From NCBI GenBank assembly GCA_030062745.1, contig CP099846.1, positions 6,190,432 to 6,254,431 on the forward strand: a DNA stretch of 64,000 nucleotides. Direction: 5' to 3'. The translations under genes and the position numbers were made by a program. Positions 12,050 to 49,150 of this stretch are shown here, piece by piece (position 1 is the first letter of the stretch; each line of letters starts with the position of its first letter). A model generated the notes under the pieces. It saw nothing but the letters and a program-made list of their open reading frames with translations. It did not search any database and was not told the DNA's origin. Source of the DNA: Capitulum mitella (lineage: Eukaryota; Arthropoda; Thecostraca; Pollicipedomorpha; Pollicipedidae).

Positions 12050-12704
12050 TCTTGCTGCCCAAACCATTCTCAAAAATCACTACATCAGTGCCCATGGAAC
12101 CATCACTGTTCAACTGGAAATGCTCTGAAATGTCTCGCGTCCAAATTTCATCCAGAAATATGCACTTTGAGCGAAGAAAAGTGCATAAATGCGATCTCCG
12201 CATGCTATCATTCACCAATAGCGTAACGCCAGTGTTGCTGCCCACTCCACATTCGATAACCGCTCAGGGAATCGTTCCGAAATGAAATGTTATCGATGGC
12301 TACTTGTGTTTAATATATCGCGTTTCAGTGCCAATGACATGGATGCATTCTGACACCTCAAATTGGCGTAAGCTATAAGCAACGTGGTTCTGCACGCCCA
12401 TCCCATACTAAACATAATCGCAAAGCCAATGAGCACCAAACGTCTGTCAATCGGCTGAGCATACGACAACATACACCGCAAATAATAGACTACTTTCATA
12501 AAAGTATGATTAGCTAGGCTTCCAATACTGCGTTCACTGGCTTTCATGCGTAACTACAGAATAGTGTTCACGCGCCATCTAGTTCTGTGACATAGTCGTT
12601 GATTTATTGATTAGTGGTTGCGCCAATGCCACTCGTTCTGCCCCCTGGCCACACGATCTGGCCAGGGGCACGGGAACTCCTCCACGGTGGGGGGGGGGGA
12701 GGAG

Positions 12705-14359: not shown

Positions 14360-17155
14360 TGAGGGACCTACCGCTCGGCGAGTGCCATCCTCCCCCGAAA
14401 TTCTTGGCTAGCTGCGCTCTTGGTTAGTAAAAGTGGACGCTTCTGTAAAGTTCATAGGGCCTATAAGCCCGTTTAAACCGAGTCTTTGATTTTAGTCTAC
14501 TGAGACGGACACAGCGAAATAGCCTTTACCTCGGCACAGGAACTGGCATTGTGTGCGCAATAAGCCTTTGCACATGTCCTGATATTCCATTATCACACGC
14601 ACATTCCAGTCGAAAACGAAGCGAAAAACTGAGGCATTGGGAATCCCTTGCATACCCCATCCTGGTTACACAGCAGCATAGCGCCCTCTGCCCCTTCCCT
14701 GCCTCGGCAGCGCCCGGCCGCCGTCCACCCGGTGCTCGGTGCCGACCGCAGCTAGAAAATCCTGTTACATGTTCATGCATCTGTGAATTAGTCTGGTCTT
14801 AACACGTTGTTCCAATCGCACTTTTCGGGCCAAAATGGCACAAACTTCACGATTTGACTTTTTGACCGGAATATTCGAATGCAACCATCCCCATATTCGA
14901 ATCCTAAAACCTATCCTAATTTTCAGTTGTAATTCGCACACACCAGTGATCCAGACAGATTAACCATTATTGTGCTAGCGAACGCATTAGCGGACTGTAT
15001 TAACGAAAAAAACAAGGAAGAAAGTAAGGACTGGTTTGGCTATGGCGCCACATATCATCTTATACCACTGCTACACGTGCGCCCACAGGTCACACAACAC
15101 ACGACTACCGTGTATATGCATCCTGGAGGAATGTATCCTGACCACTGAATCGAAATACGCAAACCCGAAAGGATTAGACACAGAAGTCAATGCGAACTCC
15201 GTCACCAGTTTTGCGTGATTATGGAGACATTCATCATACACGTCACAAAACATAGACATGCATGAAACTTCATGGATGGAGCATCATATGGCCGCCGTTA
15301 GTTCGACAGCAGAGGGTCGAATGTAGAATGACATATCCACATATTTCCCACAGTGCATGACAACGCGTCGTAAAACGCCCGACTGCGACAATCCATGTAA
15401 CCCATGACTCTCAATGATATGATCACGGAAACAAAATGGCCAGCTCTCAATACATGTCGAGGCGCACGCCAATCAACAGCATGTTGCCGTTTTAAGTATG
15501 TAAACAGCTGCGCGGTTATACTGTCACCATCACTAATCACACTACCGTATCCTGCTTTCAATCCCAAGCTCGGACCGAAGAAGCCGCGTGCGTAGTAACC
15601 AAAGGAGTGCTTCATGGTTCTTGTTTCATTTGGCCTCTGCGAAGCCGTGGACGAACTGCTCGGTCTTCAAGCGTCGACGGCCGGCAGACGTCGACGGCCT
15701 GCCGTCCACGTTTCTGGCCAGCTGGCCAGCCGTCCACAGTTACCCCAACGCATGCCACCGCCGCCGAATAACGACACACACCGTAGTAGAACGCGACGTT
15801 GTCGAGGCATGCCGCACCTGCCCAGGAATGCGGCGTCAGCATATTCAGGATCCTTCAGCCTGAGACACATTACCAGTAATCGGTACGTTACCTCGTAACG
15901 TAGTGCGAGAAACAGCATCCCTTCGGTTGGGATTATGAAGGTTTGAAATTCGCAATGGAATATGACACTGAATAACGGACCTGACCAACGGAAAGGGTAT
16001 TTCGACAGCACATGAAGCCTACAACCGTTTACGCTGCAAACAACATGTTTCCTAACTGATACATTATCGAATCGTTACCGTCCGCGACAGCCGGCTTTGT
16101 TACCACAGATACCGCTTGGTTTCGGCTGGGTAAGACCAAAGAGCCCAGGAGACGTTCCCCTTTCCACATTGTCCCTTTCCTAACTTTCGGAATGAGTGCC
16201 TGTTGCCAGCGACTGCCAAAACGAAGTGTTGTAAAGTCGCCGCCCTCCCTGCTAGGAAAGTGAGACGTAACTTTCAATAAGTGTTAAGGTGGTCTGCATG
16301 TGTTCTGAAGAGCTCATGTCACAGGAGTACTAAATGAACTACACTGTCCCGTGATCAGAGGCGTCTGAAATCAGGCAACAGAAGGCGGGGTCCAAAGCAG
16401 CGACTACATACTCATCTTAGTCCGTTGAAGGTCACAATGAGCCACAGGCACATGGCACCTGCCTGTGAAGTTATCTGTTTTCATTACAAAGGAAATTGTA
16501 TGTTAACCTACCAAATCTGAACTTGCACGAATGCTAAACAAAATTATTTTTCTTCAAAATAATCCGCTATCCTTTATCGCACAGCCAGGAGTGTTCCACA
16601 CCCACAAACCCCGCGAATGGGGTAAAATGACAGGCTTGGTTAAGAAACGTCACAAAGTCGCGGCACTCCCTGCTATGTGCATGGAATACATCTGAAATAT
16701 AAAACAATGAGTGACGGAATGGTTCTTTATAGTACATTTTGGACTACCAAAAGGAATTTAGGAAAGATCCTTGGAGAAAGGACAGCAATGAGACTAAAGC
16801 CCATGCCAAGGTCCACTTTTTACCCCCCGTTCCCACTCCTCTGTTGTTCAAGAAATCGTCCATAATGGTTTCAAACACCGAGCCTGGTGGCGCTGGGGAG
16901 ACACTATTAGTAACATGTATCCCGAGATTCTGGAACGAAGCTGCACAATGTTAATGATTTCATTACATTGCAAACAATGTACATTCCAGCTACAAATGTT
17001 AAATAGATGAACATCCTTTTGCTTTTCCGGACCACGAACGTTACGAAGATCGACAATTCAAAGCAAGCACAGCCCACATATCACTGGGGTTTTCGTCAGC
17101 ACTGTCACGTGAGCCAAGGCCCCATCATTGTTACCCATGCACAATACGCTTGAAA
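14360..17155. other. Unassigned interior of copy 1
   Basis: It has moderately GC-rich patches (14690-14760, 15640-15760 with GTCGAC palindromes). No conserved protein domain is seen on either strand, and every open frame has an equally short counterpart in copy 2. It lies 3' of the transposase gene, within the element. Confidence 0.5.
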
Positions 17156-17159
17156 TCCC

Positions 17160-17540
17160 CAGTGGCCACCCTTGTGCAGAGGGGAGCAAGTCCCCCAGAC
17201 AAGTTCACCACGGCGTATTGATTTGATTTGGTCGGATGCAAACGTCACTGTCAGCGGATGGGGCCTCGTCAATGTCGTGTCTGTCAGTGCAGTCAAACCA
17301 ATACGCCTGACATCCTCGGTGGCCACCCTTGTGCAGAGGGGAGCAAGTTCCCCAGACAAGTTCACCACGGCGTATTGATCTGATTTGGTCGGGTGCAAAC
17401 GTCACTGTCAGCAGATGGGGCCTCGTCAATGTCGTGTCTGTCAGTGCAGTCAAACCAATACGCCTGAAATCCTCGGTGGCCGCCCTTGTGCAGAGGGGAG
17501 CAAGTCCCCCAGACAAGTTCACCACGGCGTAGTGATTTGA
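17160..17540. repeat. 157-bp tandem repeat, about 2.5 units (copy 1)
   Basis: Starts of the TGTGCAGAGGGGAGCAAG phrase fall at 17182, 17339 and 17496, exactly 157 bp apart. Copy 2 has one unit fewer. It lies about 40 bp beyond the stop of the transposase, so it is subterminal or in the 3' UTR. Confidence 0.95.
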
Positions 17541-17580
17541 TTGACATGTGTAAAACAGATGCTAACGCAAAGAAAAAACT

Positions 17581-20500
17581 TCAGATTGGAAAGTTTAATA
17601 CCTCCCGCAGATGTGATTTGTGGCATTCCGACAAGTGGAGACGAACATTGTCAGGTAAAACGATGTGCGCCGAATTGGAATTAATGTTGGGAAACCTAGA
17701 AAGGAGACATGACTTTGAAATGTGATACGACATTTTACTCATCTTTTTGAAAATCGCAACTCGGACAATATCGTTTCCAATCTTTTTTGGGTACTCCCAG
17801 CGCTCCAAATGAGTGAGGACAATATCAAACGGTGGTTTCATAGCTTTATAAACAAATGGCTCCCCACACGTTTTACACTTGTTGGTCTGAGGAGTGCAAG
17901 CCTCAATATAAAATGGCTGATCATTGATATGCAGAGGACGCTTTCTTTTCAGTGGTGGTTTTTGTGAAGGTTTACGGCCAGCAGAGGAAGAGATATTCAT
18001 AGATCTCGTGCAGTTGAAAGCAATGACTTTTGGCTCCATGGTTAAAAAGGCCTTGACGTTTTGTTGTTTCTTGAACAGATTTGGATCCACTATGCATTTG
18101 AAGGCGAACTGCTGGTAAGCACCATGGAGCTTGAAATCACCTGCAAAGTCCAAAGCCCGGATGACTTCATGGTACTCAAACATTACTACATCTTTTACCT
18201 TATCAATGAAGTCGTTTACGTTAAGTTTTTTTGTTGTCGACCACTTGCTGAATCATGCTGTTCACACTTTCAGCTCTGTTGGTTGTAAAATTTACTCCGA
18301 TGATACATTTTAACATTTTATTGAGCTTGTATTTCCTAAAGTACTCTACAAACGTTTTCGCCTTAACATCCATGGCACACCATCTGCTGCAGAGTGAATC
18401 CAGCCTTTCGTGGCACGCAGTTTCATTACTCATGTTTATAAGTCCCGAGGTTTCGTCAAATAGGTCGTGCGTGATAACGTCTACTGTTGTCGTCGTAAGG
18501 ACCGTTGAGCGCAGTTTCAGCAGGATGTTGCGGCGAAAATGAACTCTACAGAGGAAGTGTTTAATCCCCGGGAACGTTACCCGGAAAGGGCTGTACAGGC
18601 GTTCATCGTCATCGGTTCCTAGGGCCCGCAAACATTTGTCGTGCTTTATGAGTTGTCGGATTTTGGAAGCAAAGGCAAAATATGTCTTTTCATCTTTTTT
18701 CGTGTGGACCGTTATAGGTCCGATCGACGTTGGATGCTTACCAGAATCTTTCCTTACCACGCTCAGATTTTCGAAAGAAGACACCGTCACGAAGAAGTCG
18801 CCAAGATTAAAGGTGGTGTCAACGGTTAACACGGCATGACGGGACCCACAGCAGAATCTGTTTAAATTTGTGACCTGTTGATCCGTGTAAAGAAATATAA
18901 TTGGCGTATCCGAAAACGTAACTTCCCTTACAAACCTGACATCCTTGAAATCATTCCGATTTTCAGTTATCACACGGTTCAAAATTTCCAAGTAAGGATC
19001 AGAATAGCGCGTCGTAGTGCGCTGTTCGGCCGCTTTGGATGTATTTTTAAGATACTTGACTTGTTTATGATCCCTCGGAGCTTCGTGAGGTGTTTCCAAA
19101 ACCCTTTTCCGGTACACTCTTTTCGGTGACGTGTCCCTGACCTCGCGCTCTACGTCTCTTAGTATCGTGCATGGCGTCCTAACGTATGGCACGTCATGAC
19201 GAGAATTTCCATGGATATGTTTGGCAGAAGAGATCTGGCCCGCCTATTCAATGAAAATGTCGTAGTCTTTTCCTGTTGCACTTGTCGTAAAAGCAATCAT
19301 TTTCTTGAAATTTGTGTCTGCTGACAGACGATAAATTTTCCGGGTGACAGTCACCACGTCACATTCGGACACCTCACTCCACTTCACTTTGTTGCCCCGC
19401 CTAAAAGAAGTAAAGTAGCCTTTGTGGTGGCCTTTGGGATCACGGCTGCAGTTGCGAATTTCTCTAGTTGCGGGATCGATACAGAAAAGACGTGAGTGCT
19501 GTCCGTAATGACGCCAAGCTCCCAAATCATCTCCGACGGCATCAATTTCATTGCTGTAGGAATGTTCGACACTAAAGGAAGATGACGTCATGATTCTTTT
19601 TGGAACGGTTTTCACTTTTTCAGCATTGGACGGTAGTCCCAGACACACACATCCGATGACCTGTTTGGAATTGGAAAACACGTCATTTTGGTCATTCCAG
19701 ATTGAATCCGCTCGTCTTCTGTTGCCAATTTTACTTTTTCCAGATGGCGCTGATTCCTCCTCTCTTTCAGCAATGTCGGGCATCTCCTCGCCACAGCAAG
19801 ATCCACGTGAGATTCCCTGCCCCGGAGAGTCCGTCCTGCTCTCTTCTCTGTCACGGTCTGGAGCTGTCATGTCCGTCTCTGGGTCAATGTTGTCTCCGTC
19901 GAGGGTCACACACAGAACATTTGAGGTCCAGCGTTCGGCACTATTCGTTGTATCGCTGTTCGTGTCGGTATGAATGATATTGGCGACAGAATCAGTTGCG
20001 TCCATATTGCTATTTTCAAAGGCGCTGGGATATAGAGGTACAAAGTGATTGGGCGCCCAGCCAGCAGGCCCATAGTTTCTGTCCATTTTTAGCGGCGCAA
20101 CGCTGGACCACATGATGGATATGCCATCCCCAGCCACCTGCGTACCTGGCCTGGGGTGGATAAGCTGGTTCATCAGACGACTGCACCAGTTGTCAGAACC
20201 GTGAACTGGAGGGTACACCGATTCGATGTCCCTCCCGATGACGGCAGCGGTGGCATAGATGTGCCACATGCCAGCCCACTTATGATTTCCACGACATCTG
20301 ATGGCTTCCACCATTGGCGGGTCGCAGGTGGCTGAGATCAGTCCCGAGTCCGTCAGTCCTTCGTAGTGCTGGGCATGTAAAACAAGTTCAATCGTGGCTC
20401 TCACACGAATTTCCGTGGCGTACATCTCAGAGTTGGTGATTGCTAATGAGACCGAATTCAAAAGGCAGTTGCCATCCCCAGTTGACGACATGGGCAGTGA

Positions 20501-20734
20501 TTTTGGGCGTTCACAGAGCTGAAGGTAAGCCACGGCTGTCTGGTCCACATTCTGGTTGGGTTTGGGTGTAGACTTCACGTGAAGAACTGGACCATATGTC
20601 CTACATACCTGATAGAAGGCCTTTTTACACTCAGCAAACATCTTTTCAGGTTCCTCAAACTCAGGCCTGCTGAGGTGGTACAGCATAGAACTGAAAAATG
20701 CTTCCCTTTCAGCCATGGCTTGCATGGAATGCAT
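17581..20734 (-). pseudogene. OTU-MULE transposase, copy 1, inactivated
   Basis: Same gene as 27337-30489 with about 98% identical residues. Two lesions separate it into three frames. A Tyr codon is changed to TAG at 19244-19246 (equivalent to residue 497 of the intact protein). A T run of seven at 18226-18232 replaces six, shifting the frame at about residue 836. The OTU motif GDGNC and all three DDE neighbourhoods remain readable. Upstream of the Met at 20734 the frame stays open for 64 more codons because a TGA present in copy 2 is TGC here. This extension begins with a hydrophobic stretch and is probably not translated, since a plausible splice acceptor (TTTTCCAG) lies within it. Confidence 0.9.
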
Positions 20735-21000: not shown

Positions 21001-21500
21001 NNNNNNNNNNNNNNNNNNNNNNNNNNNNNNNNNNNNNNNNNNNNNNNNNNNNNNNNNNNNNNNNNNNNNNNNNNNNNNNNNNNNNNNNNNNNNNNNNNNN
21101 NNNNNNNNNNNNNNNNNNNNNNNNNNNNNNNNNNNNNNNNNNNNNNNNNNNNNNNNNNNNNNNNNNNNNNNNNNNNNNNNNNNNNNNNNNNNNNNNNNNN
21201 NNNNNNNNNNNNNNNNNNNNNNNNNNNNNNNNNNNNNNNNNNNNNNNNNNNNNNNNNNNNNNNNNNNNNNNNNNNNNNNNNNNNNNNNNNNNNNNNNNNN
21301 NNNNNNNNNNNNNNNNNNNNNNNNNNNNNNNNNNNNNNNNNNNNNNNNNNNNNNNNNNNNNNNNNNNNNNNNNNNNNNNNNNNNNNNNNNNNNNNNNNNN
21401 NNNNNNNNNNNNNNNNNNNNNNNNNNNNNNNNNNNNNNNNNNNNNNNNNNNNNNNNNNNNNNNNNNNNNNNNNNNNNNNNNNNNNNNNNNNNNNNNNNNN
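21001..21500. other. Assembly gap (500 N)
   Basis: Exactly 500 N, so probably an arbitrary-size scaffold gap. It separates the right end of copy 1 from the left flank of copy 2 and prevents any direct view of their junction. Confidence 1.
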
Positions 21501-22065
21501 AAACCACGAGCAATCGACTCAAAATGTCTAGGAATAGTTCGCGTTTGAGTTTTACTGCCTTCCATAAGTTATTAACAAAGATATGGACGGAAACCAAAAA
21601 TGGTCTTGCTGCCCAAACCATACTCAAAAACCACTCAACTAACGTCCATGAAACCATCACCAATCGACTGGAAATGCTCTGAAATGGTTCGCGTTCAAGT
21701 TTCATCGAGAAATATGCACTCTAAGCAGAGAAAAGTGCATAAACGTGAAATTCGGAACCGCTGCACGCTATCACTCACTAATAACGCAACGTCCATGTTG
21801 CTGCCGAAACCATACTCAAAAGGCACCCTATAGATTTTAATGAAACCAGCAGTAATCGATTGCTAGTTCCCAAGAATAGTTCGCGTTTGAATTTTATGAA
21901 CTTTCATATGTTACTAACAAAGACTGGATGGGAGCCAGAAATGGTACCTCTTGCTGCCCAAACCATACTCAAAAATCGCTATATCAGTGCCCATGAAACA
22001 TCACTGTTCAACTGGAAATGCTCTGAAATGTCTGGCGTCCAAATTTCATCCAGAAATATGCACTG
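21501..22065 (+). repeat. Divergent ~150-190-bp tandem repeats at the left end of copy 2
   Basis: The pattern AATCGA(C/T)T...TTCGCGTTTGA(G/A)TTTTA, then an ACTAACAAAGA or AAAAGTGCAT segment, then TTGCTGCCCAAACCATACTCAAAA recurs with block starts near 21511, 21662, 21851 and 22010. Units are 70-80% alike. The last one is shared with copy 1 (from 12050) and, inverted, with 34820-35312. The array probably forms a long terminal repeat of the element. Confidence 0.75.
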
Positions 22066-23829
22066 TGAGCGAAGAAAAGTGCATAAACGCGATCTCCGCA
22101 TGCTATCATTCACCAATAACGTAACGCCAGTGTTGCTGCCCATTCCACATTCGATAACCGCTCAGGGAATCGTTCCGAAATGAAATGTTATCGATGGCTA
22201 GTTGTGTTTAATATATCGCGTTTCAGTGCCAATGACATGGATGCATTCTGACACCTCAAATTGGCGTAAGCTATAAGCAACGTGGTTCTGCACGCCCATC
22301 CCATACTAAACATATTCGCAAAGCCAATGAGCACTAAACGTCTGTCAACCGGCTGAGCATACGACAACATACACCGCGTATAATAGATTACTTTCATAAA
22401 AGTACGATCAGCTAGGCTTTCAATGCTGCGTTCACTGGCTTTCATGCGTAACTACAGAATAGTGTTCGCGCTCCATCTAGTTCTGTGACATAGTCGTTGA
22501 TTTATTGATTAGTGGTTGCGCCAATGCTACTCGTTCTTTTTCGACACGATCTGGCCAGGGACACGGGAACTCCTCCACAGTGGGGGGGGGGGGAGGAGAT
22601 GCTTCCTCCACTGTGGAAAACCCCACAGTAGAGGAAGCATTTTGGGTCAATTCTTCCCAGTCAGCGTCTACAAGGCCAATGTGTTAAATTAAAAAAACAA
22701 AAATTGGGGTGCTGCCTCTCTGCCTGTCGCTGCCTGTCGAACGATTCCTCATGCCGGTAGGACTAGGATAGGAGCGTCATTGTCCGGTGCGTTATGCGCT
22801 TATCGCTGTCGGAGATGTCGGCGGTTGCGGGTCAGCGCGCGGCCGCTCGGGAGCCGGACTAAGTATCGCCGTTGAGCTTCCACCACGCTAACGATTCCGA
22901 AGGGATCCAAATGTTTTGATGGCGGATCTCGCAGGACGAGTCGGCTTCCGACGTGGGAGCCGCGTATGTAACTGGCATGCAGATCTTACGTGATTTTCGT
23001 AGGCGCCAGCCGGATATTGCTTACGACCTGCAGGATCTAATCGGAAAGGCAAGACCGGAACACTGCCATCTGCACCGCCGAAGCCTAACTGTCCAATCCC
23101 GATAGCTGAACGAAATTAAAGTAATGGACCCCTCGCGACGCCTCCCACCGGCCTCCTACCGACGACGCTATGTCCGAGTCCCTTTGCCGGGCATTCGCAC
23201 TAAAACTGATGATTGTTTCTCGGATGACTCGAATATTCTGATTCGGTGAATGTTCCAACCTTAATTTCAACGTTCCAGTATTCTATGAGTGTTCAGTTGG
23301 CTCATTTTCACCCGAAGAATATTTCCCGAATGTTCGGCAACCGAGCATGCGAATACTCTTGCATGTAGCTACAGAATCTGTAGACAAACATGAGCCAATG
23401 ATACATAATCGAGCGGATGCTAATCGGGGCATTACATACTGTTATTTTCACCTATGTACATTATTATGGGCGGGAGCAATGCTGAGTGACATTGCCAAGG
23501 TATGCCCCTCCGCCCCTCTATTGTCACAAGGATCTGCTAGTCATATTTCGTGGGGAGATGAGTCACCTCGAGCATAATCTGCTATTTCTTTCGTATCTGG
23601 CAACGACGGGCAGATGTGATGATGTGAGGCCGGTATCAGTCGGGGAGTGACAGGTACACAGCCAGGGGGTCCTAGGGGTCCCACTCCTCTCCTCTCCGAA
23701 ATGTCTCAAGGGAGCCCACCCCCACCAAGGTAAGAAAATTACTCTTATCGGAGCTATCATCAAAATGTTTTAAGAACGTTAAACAAGAGAAGACAAAAAA
23801 GAATATATAGCTCCAAGTCTAAGGAAGGG

Positions 23830-24259: not shown

Positions 24260-27065
24260 GGGAACCTACCGCTCGGCGAGAACCATCCTTCCCCGAAATT
24301 CTTGGCTAGCTGCGCCCTTGGTTAGTAAAAGTGGACGCTTTTGTAAAGTTCATAGGGCCTATAAGCCCATTTAAACCGAGTCTTTGATTTCAGTCTACCG
24401 AGACGGACACAGCGAAATAGCCGTTACCTCGACACAGGAACTGGCATTGTGTGCGCAATAAGCCTTTGCACATGTCCTGATATTCCATTATCACACGCAC
24501 ATTCCAGTCGAAAACGAAGCGAAAAACTGAGGCATTGGGAATCCCTTGCATACCCCATCCTGGTCACACGGCAGCATAGCGCCCTCTGCCCCTTCCCTGC
24601 CTCGGCAGCGCCCGGCCGCCGTCCACCCGGTGCTCGGTGCCGACCGCAGCTAGAAAATCCTGTTACATGTTCATGCATCTGTGAATTAGTCTGGTCTTAA
24701 CACGTTGCTCCAATCGCACTTTTCGGGTCAAAACGGCACAAACTTCACGATTTGACTTTTTGACCGGAATATTCGAATGCAACCATCCCCATATTCGAAT
24801 CCTAAAACCTGTCCTAATTTTCAGTAGTAATTCGCACACACCAGTGGTCCGATCAGATTAACCATTATTGTGTTAGCGAACGTATTAGCGGACTCTATTA
24901 ACGAAAAACACAAGAAAGAAAGTAAGGACTGGTTTGGCTATGGCGCCACATATCATCATATACCACTGCTACACACGCGCCCACAGGTCACACAACACAC
25001 GACTACCGTGTATATGCATCCTGAAGGGATGTATCCTGACCACTGAATCGAAATACGCAAACCCGAAGGGATTAGACACAGAAGTCAATGCGAACTCCGT
25101 CATCAGCTTTGTGTGATTATGGGGACATTCATCATACACGTTACAAAACATAGACATGCATGAAACTTCATGGATGGAGCATCATATGACCGCCGTTAGT
25201 TCGACAGCAAAGGGTCGAATGTAATGAACATATCCACATATTTCCCACAGTGCATGACAACGCGTCGTAAAACGCCCGACTGCGACAATCCATGTAACCC
25301 ATGACTCTCAATGATGTGACCACGGAAACAAAATGGCCAGCTCTCATTATATGTCGAGGCGCACGCCAATCAACAGCATGTTGCCGTTTTAAGTATGTAA
25401 ACAGCTGCGCGGTTACACTGTCACCATCACTAATCACACTACCGTATCCTGTTTTCAATCCCAAGCTCGGACCGAAGAAATCGCGTGCGTAGTAACCAAA
25501 GGGGTACTTCGTGCTTCTTGTTTCATTTGGCCTCTGCGAAGCCGTGGACGAACTGCTCGGCCTTCAAGCGTCGACGGCCGGCAGACGTCGACGGCCTGCC
25601 GTCCACGTTTCTGGCCAGCTGGCCAGCCGTCCACAGTTACCCCAACGCATGCCGCCGCCGCCGAATAACGACACACACCGTAGTAGAACGCCACGTTGTC
25701 GAGGCATGCCGCACCTGCCCAGGAATGCGGCGTCAGCATATTCAGGATCCTTCAGCCTGAGACACATTACCAGTAATCGGTACGTTACCTCGTAACGTAG
25801 TGCGAGAAACAGCACCCCTTCGGTTGGGATTATGAAGGTTTGAAATTCACATTGGAATATGACACTGAATAACGGACCTGACAAACGGAAAGGGTATTTC
25901 GACAGCACATGAAGCCTACAACCGTTTACACCGCAAACAACATGTTTCCTAACTGACACATTATCGAAGCGTTACCGTCCGCGACAGCCACTCTTGTTAC
26001 CACAGGTACCGCTAGGTTTCGGCTGGGTAAGACCAAAGAGTCCAGGAGACGTTCCCCATTTCCACATTGCCCCTTTCCTAACTTTCGGAATGAGTGCCTG
26101 TTGCCAGCGACTGTCGAAACGAAGTGTTGTAAAGTCGTCGCCCTCCCTGCTAGGAAAGTGAGACGTAACTTCCAATAAGTGTTAAGGTGGTCTGAATGTG
26201 TTCTGAAGAGCTCATGTCACAGGAGTACTAAATGAACTACGCTGTCCCGTGATCAGAGGCGTCTGAAATCAGGCAACAGAAGGCGGGGTCCAAAGCAGCG
26301 ACTACAGACTCATCTTAGTCCGTTGAAGGTCACAATGAGCCACAGGCACATGGCACCTGCCTGTGAAGTTATCTGTTTTCATTACAAAGGAAATTGTATG
26401 TTAACCTACCAAGTCCGAACTTGCACGAATGCTAAACAAAATTATTTTTCTTCAAAATAATCCGCTATCCATTATCGGACAGCCAGGAGTGCTCCACACC
26501 CACAAACCCCGCGACTCAAGAATGAGGTAAAATGACAGGTTTGGTTAAGAAACGTGACAAAGTCGCGGCACTCCCTGCTATGTGCATGGAATACATCTGA
26601 AATATAAAACAATGAGTGACGGAATGGTTCTTTATAGTACATTTTGGACTACCAAAAGGAATTTAGGAAAGATCCTTGGAGAAAGGACAAAAATGAGACT
26701 AAAGCCCATGCCAAGGTCCACTTTTTACCCCCGTTCCCACTCCTCTGTTGTTCAAGAAATCGTCCATAATGGTTCCAAACACCGAGCCTGGTGGCGCTGG
26801 GGAACCACTATCAGCCGCATATATCCCGAGATTCTGGAACGAAGCTGCACAATGTTAATGATTTCATTACATTGCAAACAACGTACATTCCAGCCACAAA
26901 TGTTAAACAGATGAACATCCTTTTGCTTTTCCGGGCCACGAACGTTACGAAAATCGACAATTCAAAGCAAGCACAGCCCACAAATCACTGGGGTTTTCGT
27001 CAGCACTGTCTCGTGAGCCAAGGCCCCATCATTGTTACCCATGCACAGTCAAACCAATACGCTTG
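24260..27065. other. Unassigned interior of copy 2
   Basis: Counterpart of 14360-17155. No gene can be supported. Substitutions and indels relative to copy 1 fall without codon periodicity in any frame I followed. Confidence 0.5.
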
Positions 27066-27072
27066 AAATCCC

Positions 27073-27296
27073 CAGTGGCCGCCCTTGTGCAGAGGGGAGC
27101 AAGTCCCCCAGACAAGTTCACCACGGCGTATTGATTTGATTTGGTCGGGTGCAAACGTCACTGTCAGCGGATGGGGCCTCGTCAATGTCGTGTCTGTCAG
27201 TGCAGTCAAACCAATACGCCTGAAATCCTCGGTGGCCGCCCTTGTGCAGAGGGGAGCAAGTCCCCCAGACAAGTTCACCACGGCGTAGTGATTTGA
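27073..27296. repeat. 157-bp tandem repeat, about 1.5 units (copy 2)
   Basis: TGTGCAGAGGGGAGCAAG recurs at 27095 and 27252, 157 bp apart. One unit fewer than copy 1. Confidence 0.95.
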
Positions 27297-27336
27297 TTGC
27301 CATGTGTAAAACAGATGCTAACGCAAAGAAAAAACT

Positions 27337-30300
27337 TCAGATTGGAAAGTTTAATACGTCCCGCAGATGTGATTTGTGGCATTCCGACAAGTGGAGACGA
27401 ACATTGTCAGGTAAAACGATGTGTGCCGAACTGGAATTAATGTTGGGAAACCTAGAAAGGAGACATGACTTTGAAATGTGATACGACATTTTACTCATCT
27501 TTTTGAAAGTCGCAACTCGGACAATATCGTTTCCAATCTTTTTTGGATACTCCCAGCGCTCCAAATGAGTGAGGACAATATCAAACGGTGGTTTCATAGC
27601 TTTATAAACAAATGGCTCCCCACACGTTTTACACTTTTTGGTCTGAGGAGTGCAAGCCTCAATATAAAATGGCTGATCATTGATATGCAGAGGACGCTTT
27701 CTTTTCAGTGGTGGTTTTTGTGAAGGTTTACGGCCAGCAGAGGAAGGGATATTCATAGATCTCGTGCAGTTGAAAGCAATGACTTTTGGCTCCATGGTTA
27801 AAAAGGCCTTGACGTTTTGTTGTTTCTTGAACAGATTTGGATCCACTATGCATTTGAAGGCGAACTGCTGGTAAGTACCATGGAGCTTGAAATCACCTGC
27901 AAATTCCAAAGCCCGGATGACTTCATGGTACTCAAACATTACTACATCTTTTACCTTATCAATGAAGTCGTTTACGTTAAGTTTTTTGTTGTCGACCACT
28001 TGCTGAATCAGGCTGTTCACACTTTCAGCTCTGTTGGTTGTAAAATTTACTCCGATGATACATTTTAACATTTTATTGAGCTTGTATTTCCTAAAGTACT
28101 CTACAAACGTTTTCGCCTTAACATCCATGGCACACCATCTGCTGCAGAGTGAATCCAGCCTTTCGTGGCACACAGTTTCATTACTCATGTTTATAAGTCC
28201 CGAGGTTTCGTCAAATAGGTCGTGCATGATAACGTCTACTGTTGTCGTCATAAGGGCCGTTGAGCGCAGTTTCAGCAGGATGTTGCGGCGAAAATGAACT
28301 CTACAGAGGAAGTGTTTAATCCCCGGGAACGTTACCCGGAAAGGCCTGTACAGGCGTTCATCGTCATCGGTTCCTAGGGCCCGCAGACATTTGTCGTGCT
28401 TTATGAGTTGTCGGATTTTGGAAGCAAAGGCAAAATATGTCTTTTCATCTTTTTTCGTGTGGACCATTATAGGTCCGATCGACGTTGGATGCTTGCCAGA
28501 ATCTTTCCTTACCACGCTCAGATTTTCGAAAGAAGACACCGTCACGAAGAAGTCGCCAAGATTAAATGTGGTGTCAACGGTTAACACGGCATGCCGGGAC
28601 CCACAGCAGAATCTGTTTAAATTTGTGACCTGTTGATCCGTGTAAAGAAATATAATTGGTGTATCCGAAAACGTAACTTCCCTTACAAACCTGACATCCT
28701 TGAAATCATTCCGATTTTCAGTTATTACACGGTTCAAAATTTCCAAGTAAGGATCAGAATAGCGCGTCGTAGTGCGCTGTTCGGCCACTTTGGATTTATT
28801 TTTAAGATACTTAACTTGTTTATGATCCCTCGGAGCTTCGTGAGGTGTTTCCAAAACCCTTTTCCGGTACACTCTTTTCGGTGACGTGTCCCTGACCTCG
28901 CGCTCTACGTCTCTTAGTATCGTGCGTGGCGTCCTAACGTATGGCACGTCATGACGAGAATTTCCATGGATATGTTTGGCAGAAGAGATCTGACCCGCGT
29001 ATTCAATGAAAATGTCGTAGTATTTTCCTGTTGCACTTGTCGTAAAAGCAATCATTTTCTTGAAATTTGTGTCTGCTGACAGACGATAAATTTTCCGGGT
29101 GACAGTCACCACGTCACATTCGGACACCTCACTCCACTTCACTTTGTTGCCCCGCCTAAAAGAAGTAAAGTAGCCTTTGTGGTGGCCTTTGGGATCACGG
29201 CTGCAGTTGCGAATTTCTCTAGTTGCGGGATCGATACAGAAAAGACGTGAGTGCTGTCCGTAATGACGCCAAGCTCCCAAATCATCTCCGACGGCATCAA
29301 TTTCATTGCTGTAGGAATGTTCGACACTAAAGGAAGATGACGTCATGATTCTTTTTGGAACGGTTTTCACTTTTTCAGCATTGGACGGTAGTCCCAGACA
29401 CACACATCCGATGACCTGTTTGGAATTGGAAAACACGTCATTTTGGTCGTTCCAGATTGAATCCGCCCGTCTTTTGTTGCCAATTTTACTTTTTCCAGAT
29501 GGCGCTGACTCCTCCTCTTCTTCAGCAATGTCGGGCATCTCCTCGCCACAGCAAGATCCACGTGAGATTCCCTGCCCCGGAGAGTCCGTCCTGCTCTCTT
29601 CGCTGTCACGGTCTGGAGCTGTCATGTCCGTCTCTGGGTCAATGTTGTCTCCGTCGAGGGTCACACACAGAACATTTGAGGTCCAGCGTTCGGCACTGTT
29701 CGTTGTATCGCTGTTCGTGTCGGTACGAATGATATTGGCGACAGAATCATTTGCGTCCATATTACTGTTTTCAAAGGCGCTGGGATATAGAGGTACAAAG
29801 TGATTGGGCGCCCAGCCAGCAGGCCCATAGTTTCTGTCCATTTTTAGCGGCGCAACGCTGGACCACATGATGGATATGCCATCCCCAGCCACCTGCGTAC
29901 CTGGCCTGGGGTGGATAAGCTGGTTCATCAGACGACTGCACCAGTTGTCAGAACCGTGAACTGGAGGGTACACCGATTCGATGTCCCTCCCGATGACGGC
30001 AGCGGTGGCATAGATGTGCCACATGCCAGCCCACTTATGATTTCCACGACATCTGATGGCTTCCACCATTGGCGGGTCGCAGGTGGCTGAGATCAGTCCC
30101 GAGTCCGTCAGTCCTTCGTAGTGCTGGGCATGTAAAACAAGTTCAATCGTGGCTCTCACACGAATTTCCGTGGCGTAGGCCTCAGAGTTGGTGATTGCTA
30201 ATGAGACCGAATTGAAAAGGCAGTTGCCATCCCCAGTTGACGACATGGGCAGTGATTTTGGGCGGTCACAGAGCTGAAGGTAAGCCACGGCTGTCTGGTC

Positions 30301-30489
30301 CACATTCTGGTTGGGTTTGGGTGTAGACTTCACGTGAAGAACTGGACCATATGTCCTGCATACCTGATAAAAGGCCTTTTTACACTCAGCAAACATCTTT
30401 TCAGGTTCCTCAAACTCAGGCCTGCTGAGGTGGTACAGCATAGAACTGAAAAATGCTTCCCTTTCAGCCATGGCTTGCATGGAATGCAT
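27337..30489 (-). CDS. OTU protease-MULE transposase fusion, vertnin-like, 1050 aa
   Basis: Single open frame. Residues 80-240 form an OTU-type cysteine protease: TGDGNC with Asp87 and Cys90, the RVRATIELVLH helix, a MWHIYATAAVIGRDIESVYP strand pair, and NHFVPLY with His230. Residues 240-345 are acidic and low-complexity. Residues 405-500 are a basic unknown domain. Residues 630-830 form a MULE-type DDE nuclease: LTVDTTF (Asp639), GPIMVHTKK, GTDDDERL (Asp708) with FPGIKHFLCRVHFRRN, and FTTNRAESVNSLI (Glu822). The C-terminus has an LKRKRP nuclear-signal-like motif (928-933) and a KCKTCG cysteine pair (953/956) with later His/Cys that may bind zinc. The N-terminal part follows the order of motifs in vertebrate vertnin, a transposon-derived protein. 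The start is the first Met after an in-frame TGA eight codons upstream; an upstream spliced exon is possible (TTTTCCAG at about 30595). The OTU function in transposition is unknown. All catalytic residues are present, so it may be active. Confidence 0.85.
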   Translation of the reverse strand: MHSMQAMAEREAFFSSMLYHLSRPEFEEPEKMFAECKKAFYQVCRTYGPVLHVKSTPKPNQNVDQTAVAYLQLCDRPKSLPMSSTGDGNCLFNSVSLAITNSEAYATEIRVRATIELVLHAQHYEGLTDSGLISATCDPPMVEAIRCRGNHKWAGMWHIYATAAVIGRDIESVYPPVHGSDNWCSRLMNQLIHPRPGTQVAGDGISIMWSSVAPLKMDRNYGPAGWAPNHFVPLYPSAFENSNMDANDSVANIIRTDTNSDTTNSAERWTSNVLCVTLDGDNIDPETDMTAPDRDSEESRTDSPGQGISRGSCCGEEMPDIAEEEEESAPSGKSKIGNKRRADSIWNDQNDVFSNSKQVIGCVCLGLPSNAEKVKTVPKRIMTSSSFSVEHSYSNEIDAVGDDLGAWRHYGQHSRLFCIDPATREIRNCSRDPKGHHKGYFTSFRRGNKVKWSEVSECDVVTVTRKIYRLSADTNFKKMIAFTTSATGKYYDIFIEYAGQISSAKHIHGNSRHDVPYVRTPRTILRDVEREVRDTSPKRVYRKRVLETPHEAPRDHKQVKYLKNKSKVAEQRTTTRYSDPYLEILNRVITENRNDFKDVRFVREVTFSDTPIIFLYTDQQVTNLNRFCCGSRHAVLTVDTTFNLGDFFVTVSSFENLSVVRKDSGKHPTSIGPIMVHTKKDEKTYFAFASKIRQLIKHDKCLRALGTDDDERLYRPFRVTFPGIKHFLCRVHFRRNILLKLRSTALMTTTVDVIMHDLFDETSGLINMSNETVCHERLDSLCSRWCAMDVKAKTFVEYFRKYKLNKMLKCIIGVNFTTNRAESVNSLIQQVVDNKKLNVNDFIDKVKDVVMFEYHEVIRALEFAGDFKLHGTYQQFAFKCIVDPNLFKKQQNVKAFLTMEPKVIAFNCTRSMNIPSSAGRKPSQKPPLKRKRPLHINDQPFYIEACTPQTKKCKTCGEPFVYKAMKPPFDIVLTHLERWEYPKKIGNDIVRVATFKKMSKMSYHISKSCLLSRFPNINSSSAHIVLPDNVRLHLSECHKSHLRDVLNFPI

Positions 30490-34819: not shown

Positions 34820-35312
34820 TTGAAATGCAACCATGTCATTGGTACTGAAACGCGATATATTAAACACAACTAGCCATCGATAACATTTCATTTCGGAACG
34901 ATTCCCTGAGCGGTTATCGAATGTGGAATGGGCAGCAACACTGGCGTTACGTTATTGGTGAATGATAGCATGCGGAGATCGCGTTTATGCACTTTTCTTC
35001 GCTCACAGTGCATATTTCTGGATGAAATTTGGACGCGAGACATTTCAGAGCATTTCCAGTTGAACAGTGATGGTTTCATGGGCACTGATGTAGTGATTTT
35101 TGAGTATGGTTTGGGCAGCAAGAGGTACCATTTCTGGCTCCCATCCAATCTTTGTTAGTAACATATGGAAGTTCATAAAATTCAAACGCGAACTATTCTT
35201 GGGCACTAGCAATCGATTACTGCTGGTTTCATTAAAATCTATAGGGTGCCTTTTGAGTATGGTTTCGGCAGCAACATGGACGTTGCGTTATTAGTGAGTG
35301 ACGGCGTGCAGG
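34820..35312 (-). repeat. Inverted copy of the left end of the 9-kb element
   Basis: It is the reverse complement of about 21763-22245, at high identity (CGATATATTAAACACAACTAG through GTTATTAGTGAGTGA). It ends abruptly at about 35312 next to a poly(A/T) tract. Either the right terminal inverted repeat of copy 2 or a separate truncated insertion. Confidence 0.9.
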
Positions 35313-35339
35313 CGTGCTAGGTTTTGGGCAAATTCCCAA

Positions 35340-35358
35340 ATTTTTTTTTCATTTAAAG

Positions 35359-35399
<41 letters not shown>

Positions 35400-35470
35400 T
35401 TTTTTAATTGTTTTTTTTATGCACCAAAATTAAATTTTTTTTTTTAAGGGGTGGGGAGAGAAAAAAAAAT
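35340..35470. repeat. Poly(A)/poly(T) tract
   Basis: Long A and T homopolymers (35359-35410, 35429-35475) with likely length error. A partial MITE family 3 copy follows (35475-35550). Confidence 0.9.
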
Positions 35471-35899
35471 TTTTTTGGGATTTGGGGGGCAAATGTGACT
35501 TTTACCTCACTTCTTTCCATGCAATACCCTAGGGTTAATGTTTTAGGGCCATTGGTCGACAGTAAGATTTTGACCGAGCGCTTACTTCGAGGGAAAATAA
35601 TCGTAGTACTGGTTGCATGGCACTTCAAACGCAGTACTGATAAGTACTACTTACGATTTCAGCCGGAAAAACCTGAAACACATTATTTCCCCCGAAACAG
35701 ATTGCTTCGTCACTGGTATGCTAACCGCCAGACGCTCGCGTAGGGATTTTTCACGTTTCTGCGTTAAATAGTTTGTTTACGTGAGATCTCGACGCTGATT
35801 GGTCGTCGGTCGGACTCAAGGTCCAATCAAGAGTAATAAAAAAGGTTGGAGAAATAACTAATGCGATATAAATTATGTTTCAAATGACAAAGTTAGTCG

Positions 35900-43663: not shown

Positions 43664-45053
43664 GGTGCCAGTTTTGCAGTGCGCTTCGATCGACACCAAA
43701 TTTGTCCGTAACTCGTTGGCGGTTTGGCGGCACAGCCGCCTGCGGACGATGTGGCCAGCGATATGGCCCTGGCGAAACCGTAGTTTTTTGTTTGTCGAAT
43801 TTGAAAGAATCCGGAAACTTCCAAGAAACGCGACATGGCCTACTGATCCCCTCCCTCCAATTCAAGAAAAGTTCCTGTGCTTCTGGTCAGGACCATTGCC
43901 ACTCACCACTGGAGGGGCCTCCGTCGGCACTCTCACTCTCCTCACACGACCCAGACCTCAGCGCTGTCGCGGCATCGCTACTTGCACTGCGAGCTGCGGC
44001 TGTGTCCATGCGAGATGGCTCAGACGCTAAAGTGACCAAGCAACGTCATTTATACTGTTATGTCTGAAATTCCTCGGTGCAGCGCATGCATAGTCCACTA
44101 AGGATCCTTCACCTCCGGTGGTATTTTATTGCACCACCTCGGTCAGGCCCGGATCGGCGTGCGTCGAGACCTCTGTTAACAGGTTGAGCAACGCACCAGC
44201 AAATACGCCGACTGCGAGCGCCGCTGCAGTGGGTACGCATCTAAATGGCCGTAGTTTTGTTCCCTGGTCCCCTGTCGCGGTTCTCTGTCCCAGGCCGTTA
44301 TCCCAGCTCCCCTGTCTCCGTATGTGATACCAACACCGGTCTCCATTTCTTACGTCTACTATCCCATGTCGCTGATTCCCTGTGCCGATCAGCTATGGCT
44401 CGGCCGGGCCAGTCTGCAGGTTGTGCACCACCTCGGCCAGGCCCGGGACGGTGCCGGCGACCGCACGCGTCGAGAGCTCTGTTCGCAGGTTCAACAATGG
44501 CCAGCTATGGCCGGGTCCGGGCCCGCCTGCAGGCCGCGAAACACCTCGGCCAGGACGTTTTACCCCTCACAACACATACCAAATGACAGCCTGCCAGCTG
44601 TTCTTTTTCCGAGAAGCACTTTGAGCCTCTTGTCGATTTGACGTGTGGCAAAACCACCCTGGGATAGCCCGACACCACCTTCTTGCAGTCCACTTTTGAA
44701 TTCGCCACTGCACTTTTCTGAAAAAAAGCCTCGAATTCGACGCAAAATTCAACAGCTGCGCCAAAATCGACTTTATTATATTGTATGGGCCTGCAATGTT
44801 TTGGAGACATTCTTTTCCTATCAACTGCATCGAAGAGCGGTCCTGCGGCACCCGATGGTTCCCAATGACGTCATGAGCATTTGCGTTTGCACAGCGGAGT
44901 CTTAAATACAAATCTTGTCTCCACGCAGAATTCAGCAGTGAAATACAACTGTACCAAAACTGACTTGACTGTATTGGCGTGCAATATTTTCGAGACATTC
45001 TTTTCTTACTAATTGCATCGAAAAGCGGTCCTACGGCACCCCTAGGTTTCCAA

Positions 45054-46459
45054 TGACGTCATGAGCATTTGAGTTTGCACAGAGGAGCTCTACGAACCTT
45101 GGTTACGCTTATGCCTCTTGTATGTGCCATCGCCAAAGAAAACGGAAAACCTACGAAAATGCGTGCCAAAATAAAGCTTACCTCATGTTCTGTCTTTCCA
45201 AAGTGGTTTCAGGACTCCATCTTGCCCGCGTTTTTCAATATAACACCTTATCCATGCGGGGGCAAAAGTGGCGCAAACACAACCTTTGTTGTACGTTTTT
45301 ATTCCTTTCAAACACGTTTCACCCCTCACAACGCACACCACAAAAAACACTGCTGGCCGTTCCGTCTCTGAGAAGCACTTTACGCTGTCCACGGCGCCCC
45401 GGTAATTTTGTACAACCTATTTCAAGTAGCGCCACAGTGGCGCAATGTCCCAGAGCATCATTGTACATTTCAACTGTTTTCAGTGAGATTTCATCAGCGA
45501 AAAGCATACCAGAAGACAGCGTGCGTGCTCCTGTGTCTGTTCAAAGTGGTTTCGGCTCATCAGCTCATTTCAAGCCATGGGTGAACACCGGACGGCGCAA
45601 ATACGGCACCAGCAAATACGCCGACTGCGAGCGCCGCTGCAGTGGGTACGCATCTAAATGGCCGTAGTTTTGTTCCCTGGTCCCCTGTCGCGGTTCTCTG
45701 TCCCAGGCCGTTATCCCAGCTCCCCTGTCTCCGTATGTGATACCAACACCGGTCTCCATTTCTTACGTCTACTATCCCATGTCGCTGATTCCCTGTGCCG
45801 ATCAGCTATGGCTCGGCCGGGCCAGTCTGCAGGTTGTGCACCACCTCGGCCAGGCCCGGGACGGCGCCGGCGACCGCACGCGTCGAGAGCTCTGTTCGCA
45901 GGTTCAACAATGGCCAGCTATGGCCGGGTCGGGCCCGCCTGCAGGCCGCGAAGCACCTCGGCCAGGACGTTTTACCCCTCACAAAACATACCAAATGACA
46001 GCCTGCCGGCTGTTCTTTTTCTGAGAAGCACTGACCTCTTGTCGTCAATTGGACGTGTGGCAAAACCACCCTCGGTTGGCCCGACACCATCTTCTTGCAG
46101 TCCACTTTTGAATTCGCCACTGCATTTTTCTGAAAAAAGTCTCGAATTCCACGCGAAATTCAACAGCTGCGCCAAAACCGACTATATTATATTAGCCTGC
46201 AATGTTTTGGAGACATTCTTTTATTATCAACTGCATCGAAAAGCGGTCCTGCGGCACCCGTTCGTTTCCAATGGCGTCATGAGCATTTGCGTTTGCACAG
46301 CGGAGTCTTAAATACAAATCTTGTCTCCACGCAGAATTCAGCAGTGAAATACAACTGCACCAAAATTCACTTGATTGTATTAGCGTGCAATGTTTTCGAG
46401 ACATTTTTTTCTTATTAATTGCATCGAAAAGCGGTCCTACGGCACCCGTAGGTTTCCAA
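45054..46459 (+). repeat. 1406-bp tandem unit 1
   Basis: Nearly identical to the next unit. Differences are seen at about 45640-45705 and a handful of other sites. Confidence 0.95.
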
Positions 46460-47865
46460 TGACGTCATGAGCATTTGAATTTGCACAGAGGAGCTCTACG
46501 AACCTTGGTTACGCTTATGCCTCTTGTATGTGCCATCGCCAAAGAAAACGGAAAACCTACGAAAATGCGTGCCAAAATAAAGCTTACCTCATGTTCTGTC
46601 TTTCCAAAGTGGTTTCAGGACTCCATCTTGCCCGCGTTTTTCAATATAACACCTTATCCATGCGGGGGCAAAAGTGGCGCAAACACAACCTTTGTTGTAC
46701 GTTTTTATTCCTTTCAAACACGTTTCACCCCTCACAACGCACACCACAAAAAACACTGCTGGCCGTTCCGTCTCTGAGAAGCACTTTACGCTGTCCACGG
46801 CGCCCCGGTAATTTTGTACAACCTATTTCAAGTAGCGCCACAGTGGCGCAATGTCCCAGAGCATCATTGTACATTTCAACTGTTTTCAGTGAGATTTCAT
46901 CAGCGAAAAGCATACCAGAAGACAGCGTGCGTGCTCCTGTGTCTGTTCAAAGTGGTTTCGGCTCATCAGCTCATTTCAAGCCATGGGTGAACACCGGACG
47001 GCGCAAATACGGCACCAGCAAATACGCCGACTGCGCGCGCCGCTGCAGAGGGGACGCATCTAAATGACCGCAGTTTTGTTCCCTGGTCCCCTGACGCGGT
47101 TCTCTGTCCCAGGCCGTTATCCCAGCTCCCCTGTCTCCGTATGTGATCCCAACACCGGTCTCCATTTCTTACGTCTACTATCCCATGTCGCTGATTCCCT
47201 GTGCCGATCAGCTATGGCTCGGCCGGGCCAGTCTGCAGGTTGTGCACCACCTCGGCCAGGCCCGGGACGGCGCCGGCGACCGCACGCGTCGAGAGCTCTG
47301 TTCGCAGGTTCAACAATGGCCAGCTATGGCCGGGTCGGGCCCGCCTGCAGGCCGCGAAGCACCTCGGCCAGGACGTTTTACCCCTCACAAAACATACCAA
47401 ATGACAGCCTGCCGGCTGTTCTTTTTCTGAGAAGCACTGACCTCTTGTCGTCAATTGGACGTGTGGCAAAACCACCCTCGGTTGGCCCGACACCATCTTC
47501 TTGCAGTCCACTTTTGAATTCGCCACTGCATTTTTCTGAAAAAAGTCTCGAATTCCACGCGAAATTCAACAGCTGCGCCAAAACCGACTATATTATATTA
47601 GCCTGCAATGTTTTGGAGACATTCTTTTATTATCAACTGCATCGAAAAGCGGTCCTGCGGCACCCGTTCGTTTCCAATGGCGTCATGAGCATTTGCGTTT
47701 GCACAGCGGAGTCTTAAATACAAATCTTGTCTCCACGCAGAATTCAGCAGTGAAATACAACTGCACCAAAATTCACTTGATTGTATTAGCGTGCAATGTT
47801 TTCGAGACATTTTTTTCTTATTAATTGCATCGAAAAGCGGTCCTACGGCACCCGTAGGTTTCCAA
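46460..47865 (+). repeat. 1406-bp tandem unit 2
   Basis: Follows unit 1 without a gap; every comparable landmark is shifted by exactly 1406. Identity is about 99% by eye, implying recent duplication or ongoing homogenisation. Confidence 0.95.
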
Positions 47866-49150
47866 TGACGTCATGAGCATTTGAATTTGCACAGAGGAGT
47901 CTCTAACCTTGGTTACGCTTATGCCTCTGTTATGTGCCATCCCCAAAATCGACTTCATTGTGTTAGCCAGGACTTCTTAAACCTAATGTCACCCACGCAA
48001 CACGCACCGTGGTTCCGCAGCATGAGGGAAATTGTGTTGAACCGGAAATGGAAAACCTATGAAAATGCGTACCAAAAAAAGCTTACCTCATGTTCTGTCT
48101 TTCCAAAGTGGTTCCAGAACTTCATCTTGCCCGCGTTTTGAAGTATAACGTTGTCCATGCGGGGGCAAAAGTGGCGCAAACACAACCTTTGTTGTACGTT
48201 TTTATTCCTTTCAAACACGTTTCACCCCTCACAACGCACACCACAAAAAACACTGCTGGCCATTCCGTCTCTGAAAAGCACTTTACGCTGTCCACGGCGC
48301 CCCGGTAATTTTGTACAACCTATTTCAAGTAGCGCCACAGTGGCGCAATGTCCCAGAGCATCATTGTACATTTCAACTGTTTTCAGTGAGATTTCATCAG
48401 CGAAAAGCATACCAGAAGACAGCGTGCGTGCTCCTGTGTCTGTTCAAAGTGGTTTCGGCTCACCATCTGGCACTCGGAGTTTAATACGTCCTCTTGCAGC
48501 TGACCATTTCCCGTGTGCCAAAACCGCCCTCGGACAGCTCGACACCACCTTCTGTCAGTCGACTTTTGAAATGGTCACTGCACTTTTCCGCAAGAAAAAC
48601 ACCCGAATTCTACGCACATTATCAAAGCACCTCGGATGCCGTTGCGCGCGACACTGACGGCGGAAAATCACTTGTCTTTCGGAACCACTTTCCACCGCGC
48701 TAAATAGGGGACGCCATGCCACCGCCGAGGCGATATTCAGCTGACACCTACGGTCACGTGACAACACGATTGGACGAAACGTTTTCGGCAATTTTTGGGC
48801 ATTTCCAGGCATTTTTCGGCATTTTTGAGCAAAACCACATAACGTCTCGTTATGTGGATGATGCCAGTTTTGCAGTGCGCTTCGCTCGACACCAAATTTG
48901 TCCGTGACTCGTCGGCGGTTTGGCCGCACGCCCGCCTGCGGCCGATGTGGCCAGCGATATGGCCCTGGCGAAACCGTAGTTTTTTGTTTGTCGAATTTGA
49001 AAGAATCCGGAAACTTCCGAAAAACGCGACATGGCCTACGCCACGCTCCCGATTGCGCAGTTTGTACTGGTGCTGATGGCTTGTCGGCACACCGCGTGAG
49101 AGCCGAGCATTATGTACCTAAAAATTCGAACCGCGTATTAATATAGGTGA

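Follow-up and report, generated by a model that had tools for sequence, protein, structure and literature searches.

An intact OTU-MULE transposase gene, as predicted from sequence, in the arthropod Capitulum mitella

The window analysed here is a 64,000-nucleotide stretch of the Capitulum mitella genome (Arthropoda; Thecostraca; GenBank assembly GCA_030062745.1, contig CP099846.1, positions 6,190,432 to 6,254,431), in which a single uninterrupted frame of 1050 codons runs along the minus strand from 27337 to 30489 and joins a putative OTU (ovarian tumour) cysteine protease domain to the putative DDE core of a Mutator-like element (MULE) transposase. This frame, the window's copy B, very probably is an OTU-MULE gene and is laid out as follows (residue numbers are those of the window protein; dN/dS is the ratio of non-synonymous to synonymous substitution rates):

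27337-30489, minus strand: OTU-MULE transposase frame, intact, 1050 aa; stop codon at 27337-27339; 100% self-match and stop-free in the search of its own genome
29977-30234, minus strand: OTU cysteine protease profile match (PF02338), residues 86-171, with D87 and C90; H230 lies downstream, beyond the matched part
29440-29769, minus strand: acidic, fast-evolving linker, about residues 241-350, from identity and dN/dS over residues 241-370 and a charge count
28930-29439, minus strand: conserved, basic middle region, residues 351-520, without a Pfam match; at a guess, a candidate DNA-binding domain
28285-28587, minus strand: MULE DDE core profile match (PF10551, below cut-off), residues 635-735, with D639 and D708, then E822
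27448-27654, minus strand: C-terminal Cys/His-rich region (C946, C953, C956, H975, H1004, C1009), putatively zinc-binding; columns invariant in two intact members

An earlier note on this DNA had described such an uninterrupted frame, with OTU residues D87, C90 and H230 and DDE residues D639, D708 and E822. The frame was borne out, on the minus strand, and all six residues were found in place, within the motifs TGDGNC (from residue 85), NHFVP (from 229), VDTTF (from 638), GTDDDE (from 706) and NRAES (from 819). The same holds for the basic middle domain of unclear nature and the cysteine-containing C-terminus that the note had reported: the former is conserved (72.6% identity over residues 371-520 between two intact family members) and matches no Pfam family at E ≤ 10, and the latter, also without a Pfam match, carries a CxxC and further His/Cys residues that are invariant across the two intact members, some of them being lost in decayed copies (L006, L052). 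In the linker, residues 241-350 comprise 25 acidic (D+E) vs. 10 basic (K+R) residues.

The frame has numerous relatives in the host genome (477,042,490 bases in 16 contigs), where tblastn matched at least 59 stretches, here grouped into 20 places. Two full-length open frames are found among the places listed, namely the window frame and a second intact member (L004, C4:30191046-30194138) of 1030 aa, which is 74% identical and has an identical domain order, and most of the ~20 places carry stops. In collections of viral contigs and genome contigs, no relative of the window frame was confirmed. At C16:12263869-12264513 and C8:7542573-7543664, sequences far more distantly related to the frame were observed (27-65% identity, with stops in most pieces), which suggests that they belong to older related families.

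For the putative OTU domain, the PF02338 profile reaches 25.5 bits (E 2e-5) on the whole window protein, above its cut-off of 23.3, and 27.9 bits on the isolated N-terminus, the match spanning profile positions 2-85 of 128. As H230 lies beyond this match, its assignment rests on the NHFVP motif and on conservation. The two intact members share D87, C90 and H230, and across eight loci bearing the open reading frame (ORF), seven of which carry stops or a frameshift, H230 is kept in 8/8, C90 in 7/8 (Y in L052) and D87 in 7/8 (E in L007). A six-frame search of the host genome with the OTU model (E ≤ 1e-3) listed six places, four of which belong to this OTU-MULE family, the window frame scoring 28.8 bits. 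By its profile and its catalytic Asp, Cys and His, the N-terminal domain is thus predicted to be an OTU cysteine protease.

The DDE core gives fainter profile matches. When isolated, it reaches 25.6 bits (E 1.7e-5) against PF10551, still below the cut-off of 27.6, and E 0.016, again below cut-off, against Transposase_mut, while the NCBIfam IS256 model (NF033543) matches both intact members (best E 2.5e-5), in the window protein over residues 717-840, across E822. Among the eight ORF loci, D639 is kept in 8/8, D708 in 7/8 (Y in L052) and E822 in 7/8 (G in L008). The spacing is 68 residues between the two aspartates and 113 between D and E; in the arthropod MULEs of a recent survey (PMC13359780) the usual values are 60-76, which 68 fits, and 120-135, which 113 falls just under. 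By E-value, although not by the curated cut-offs, this is a putative MULE/IS256-type DDE core.

Evolutionarily, the two intact members differ by a dN of 0.164 and a dS of 1.49 (dN/dS = 0.11). By region, dN/dS is 0.106 for the OTU part (residues 81-240, 82.5% identity), 0.376 for the linker (241-370, 34.2%), 0.151 for the middle region (371-520) and 0.057 for the DDE part (601-880, 82.1%), all of these ratios being approximate because dS is near saturation. Both the OTU and DDE domains thus appear to be under purifying selection. The OTU-MULE fusion with intact motifs proposed in the earlier note is supported. Between copy B and a broken copy A in the window, pN/pS (0.43) is not significant (simulation P 0.09), and substitutions amount to 1.52% in the frame vs. 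3.64% in the left arm.

The ends of the family are defined by terminal inverted repeats (TIRs), of which the window holds the inner parts for copy B:

21001-21500: 500-N assembly gap between copies A and B; predicted site of the copy B left terminus
21761-22247, plus strand: left TIR of copy B, inner part; inverted match to 34824-35311, like the inner TIR of other copies
34824-35311, minus strand: right TIR of copy B, inner part, from the inverted match and a family TIR match; breaks off at 35311 in a low-complexity stretch

These two pieces (487 and 488 bp) are 97.7% identical. The family TIR terminates in GGGAGAGTACAATTTGC, and the genome contains the terminus GGGAGAGTACAATTTGCTGCCCGGAGC 31 times at up to 3 mismatches, vs. 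0 times for a reversed-pattern control. In the window, the terminus pattern was not found at up to 6 errors, and the outer ends of copy B are absent from the assembly. Placed by the ~504-bp offset seen in foldback copies, the outer ~504 bp of the left TIR would be expected inside the N gap and immediately after it, with a terminus at ~21257. Next to the break of the right TIR, a low-complexity A/T run with odd homopolymers (35311-35700) looks like poor assembly.

Genome-wide, the left window TIR matches 82 stretches. Ten TIR loci (L025-L034) were fetched, and eight of these are near-perfect head-to-head palindromes of about 1.42-1.44 kb, the others being a 0.8-kb palindrome (L030) and a 195-bp inverted pair (L027). 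Both termini are present in nine of the ten (lengths 956 to 1426 bp; L030 showed no left terminus within its locus), and these nine short copies are flanked by exact target-site duplications (TSDs) of 8-10 bp in six cases, with one mismatch in two and by none in one (L031), vs. 0/72 for control pairs of mismatched left and right ends. On these sequence features, the ten loci are classed as foldback non-autonomous derivatives of the OTU-MULE family. A longer copy of 8124 bp (C12:21610014-21618137, L047), whose diverged left end was set by hand after a scan, has 993-bp TIRs (97.7% identical) and a 9-bp duplication, and no transposase match is listed for it in the tblastn of the window frame. The family therefore has the long TIRs of MULEs and, at 8-10 bp, TSDs within their 8-11-bp range and, with its relatives at ~20 listed places, belongs to a transposon, as a copy-number and TSD survey suggested by the earlier note now indicates.

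At ORF-bearing places on C1, C2 and C16, a terminus lies 5.6 to 8.0 kb past the 3' end of the frame, and the arms of the element measure about 4-5 kb per side. In a second subfamily on C4 and C12, homology between the two loci extends over more than 20 kb and stops at C4 N gaps on both sides; a 74% inverted match of 294 columns (30184729-30185019 and 30209551-30209822) flanks this gap pair and could be either the TIR of the subfamily or a dispersed repeat. Separately, a copy on C7 is flanked by a 1663-bp inverted repeat of 98% identity (C7:15935235-15936894 and 15948350-15950000; L054, L055), which has no match to the OTU-MULE family TIR.

Taken together, these data indicate that the frame encodes the putative transposase of a large Mutator-like element of autonomous type. 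The C-terminal half would bind the inverted repeats and cut and paste the element, a cut-and-paste type transposase being suggested by the DDE core, the ends and the duplications. The OTU domain, carried on a variable acidic linker, would act in trans as a deubiquitinase, its target being either ubiquitin on the transposase itself, which would then escape degradation, or ubiquitin on chromatin or on repair proteins at the donor site and the target site. We assign this full explanation a probability of roughly 0.6, and for the deubiquitinase role of the OTU domain, taken separately, we see an even chance.

Several observations weigh against this explanation. Across the whole window protein, PF10551 scores 22.9 bits (E 1.1e-4), short of its cut-off, as does the second intact member (also 22.9 bits), and the IS256 match of the window member (22.8 bits, E 3.8e-5) is far below the cut-off of that model (150). 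The six places listed in a six-frame search of the host genome with the MULE model do not overlap the OTU-MULE family at all, which was missed because its core is too distant from the Pfam model. The second intact member also falls just short for the OTU domain (22.0 bits vs. 23.3) and is missing from the genome-wide OTU matches listed. Single-sequence AlphaFold2 models have low confidence, with a predicted local distance difference test (pLDDT) score of 36.6 for residues 56-250 and 46.6 for residues 395-520, so that the OTU and DDE folds rest on sequence profiles, and when the OTU and DDE parts were run against the PDB, neither an OTU nor a transposase structure scored significantly (OTU chains at E 0.5-2 only). 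By region, dS is 0.9-1.7, and infinite for residues 881-1050. Finally, among the ORF-bearing copies in the host genome, none was found to have both termini as well as a duplication, and the TIR and TSD evidence comes from non-autonomous copies that are tied to the family by TIR sequence.

The same domain combination is already on record. MuDR-6_HM of Hydra (Repbase; group 14, Cnidaria, in Dupeyron et al., 2019) is a single-ORF MULE listed with "Ovarian Tumour Gene" (PMC6446971 Table 1); the likeness is by description only, and the element differs in its cnidarian host, in having no TIR and in its TSD not being indicated in that table, whereas the family described here has TIRs of 993 bp and duplications of 8-10 bp. 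The combination of OTU and MULE is thus not categorically new, and what is new, relative to the literature surveyed, is the host group, an arthropod. A 2026 survey of 4268 arthropod genomes names twelve MULE clades, group 14 not being among them, and its main text contains no occurrence of OTU, protease or peptidase (PMC13359780), though the present family may belong to one of the twelve, for instance "non_reference"; a literature search by joint terms for OTU-bearing MULE or Phantom transposases returned no paper. Phantom and Phantom_Muta2 resemble the present family in their hosts, which include arthropods, their TIRs (18-613 bp) and their 8-10-bp duplications (PMC6446971 Table 1; PMC13359780), and aphid Phantom has a minisatellite after the transposase ORF (PMC6446971 Table 1). 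They differ in their listed zinc finger, which is FLYWCH, SWIM or absent, with OTU unmentioned in the main-text parts of both sources (PMC6446971; PMC13359780). Four segments of the window protein gave no FLYWCH or SWIM family in Pfam at E ≤ 10, an absence that does not exclude Phantom because these fingers are listed for some Phantom members only. Ginger1 also combines a DDE transposase with an OTU or Ulp1 domain, for which its authors proposed a role in repair through ubiquitin, but its DDE core is of the Gypsy-integrase type and its OTU domain is C-terminal; in hydra, lancelet and plants, Mutator elements with a Ulp1 domain likewise pair a MULE with a (de)conjugating cysteine protease, this being of the Ulp1 family and not OTU (PMC2836005, for the parts of that paper covering these elements).

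How the OTU domain acts could be read differently. It might be a non-catalytic binding or dimerisation module, kept for its fold and not for cleavage, as in vertnin, which is published together with OTULL as an inactive OTU homologue (in the classification of PMC10318531), and the restriction of the profile match to positions 2-85 of 128 would agree with this. We nevertheless regard it as unlikely, given that the three catalytic residues are identical in both intact members and persist almost throughout the eight ORF loci despite the stops and frameshift in seven of them. The earlier note had also raised the possibility that the OTU domain processes the transposase, freeing it from the N-terminus. 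The OTU family does belong to the papain-like cysteine proteases (PMC10318531, same classification), and a variable linker lies downstream. This linker, however, is just 34% identical between the two intact members, and the 1050 residues of the window protein contain no Gly-Gly at all, nor does either intact member contain a site of the R/K-x-G-G or LRGG type. Cleavage of the ubiquitin type follows Gly-Gly. Together with the three retained catalytic residues and the variable acidic linker, this lack of Gly-Gly makes action in trans likelier than self-processing, which we consider very unlikely. That the frame is instead a domesticated, vertnin-like host gene and not a transposon would be consistent with a long intact frame under purifying selection at two loci, but is highly improbable in view of the ~20 listed places, most with stops, and of flanking TIRs shared with target-duplicating non-autonomous copies.

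The arrangement of the two copies in the window is a further matter, and involves the following features:

17581-20734, minus strand: copy A of the gene, at 98% identity, its frame disrupted by an early stop codon and a 1-base frameshift
17142-17542: minisatellite of copy A, 2.6 repeats of a 157-bp unit, its end lying 38 bp away from the stop codon
12050-12349, plus strand: part of the left TIR of copy A, cut off at 12050; family TIR match (L023)
27046-27298: partial minisatellite 3' of the copy B frame, with the 157-bp unit present about 1.6 times, from self-matches; unreported by Tandem Repeats Finder

The tandem of copies A and B could be a false neighbourhood created by scaffolding, either of two haplotypes or of distant copies, in which case the local arrangement would be meaningless. 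With a 500-N gap between the copies and both contig ends inside the repeat, this is a serious possibility, if one we hold to be somewhat less than even. Two haplotypes are made less likely by the separate left flank of copy A, with homology ending at 12050, and by the divergence of the copies (1.5% over the frame, 3.6% over the left arm); no point counts against distant copies having been set side by side. The full open frame of copy B is unaffected by this question.

The minisatellite is also found in the second subfamily, as a homologous array of 160-bp units in 5.8 copies. In the five best alignments between the subfamilies, identity is 77-81%, a shuffled control giving no match; over the rest of the arms, the two subfamilies align only in short stretches, few in number and at most 229 bases long. 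Among ten other frames in the arms, none matched a Pfam family above cut-off, and Rfam and tRNA searches returned none.

The earlier note had linked the frame to vertnin, as a live relative of its ancestor. The family may be live, in that two full-length frames are open, but the window copy lacks its outer ends in the assembly. By the published classification, vertnin shares an OTU-like domain with the frame, but differs in that it is described as lacking the catalytic residues and as a cellular gene (PMC10318531), and its "transposase" link, as presented in PMC3024977, is a helix-turn-helix similarity to IS3/IS911 and not a MULE origin. Among the matches listed in literature searches, we found no paper deriving vertnin from a MULE, and none using "vertnin-like"; by the titles listed, the literature on vertnin and transposons consists of livestock studies, most on insertions of retrotransposons or short interspersed nuclear elements (SINEs), such as the SINE in the vertnin gene covered by PMC10362595. 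In the passages considered, PMC10027918 mentions neither OTU nor vertnin, and no vertnin is among the matches listed in the PDB search with the window protein. One might speculate that an arthropod MULE lineage with an obligatory, active OTU deubiquitinase, unnoticed owing to a core that scores under the Pfam MULE cut-off, also gave vertebrates vertnin, the DDE core and OTU catalysis having been lost. This seems to us decidedly unlikely; if true, ubiquitin removal would be a built-in step of transposition and the origin of vertnin would be explained.

More broadly, OTU or Ulp1 domains have been gained by several unrelated transposon groups. The present family, which extends OTU-MULEs from Cnidaria to an arthropod relative to the literature surveyed, offers two intact and diverged members, an OTU domain apparently held by selection (dN/dS 0.106, vs. 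0.057 for the core and 0.376 for the linker), and defined ends; with these members and ends, a direct test of whether a deubiquitinase helps transposition becomes feasible. Should a tree establish the link to vertnin, the family would inform the origin of a gene that affects vertebral number.

Other observations concern the remainder of the window and the searches. A tachylectin-2 match in the PDB (E 0.0036) was rejected, as it is the sum over five short repeats, none passing singly, and drops to 0.4 with a two-member profile. The repeat (TTAGG)n is the arthropod telomere repeat; a 35-base TTAGG array has 2436 overlapping matches in the genome vs. 0 for the control, in keeping with an arthropod host, and the matches listed are all inside C1, away from its start. 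Between 41700 and 49040, the window holds nested repeats, including a ~1.4-kb unit lying nearly head to tail (44193-46543 and 45606-47947, 97% identical), and neither of the two frames tested in this part has a Pfam match. A Tc1/mariner-type transposase is spread across two frames on the minus strand at 6975-8212, one matching HTH_Tnp_Tc3_2 and the other DDE_3. Lastly, an intact single-frame gene of 564 aa on the minus strand at 49977-51671 is carboxylesterase/cholinesterase-like (COesterase, E 8.8e-131) and sits in an island of 70% G+C.

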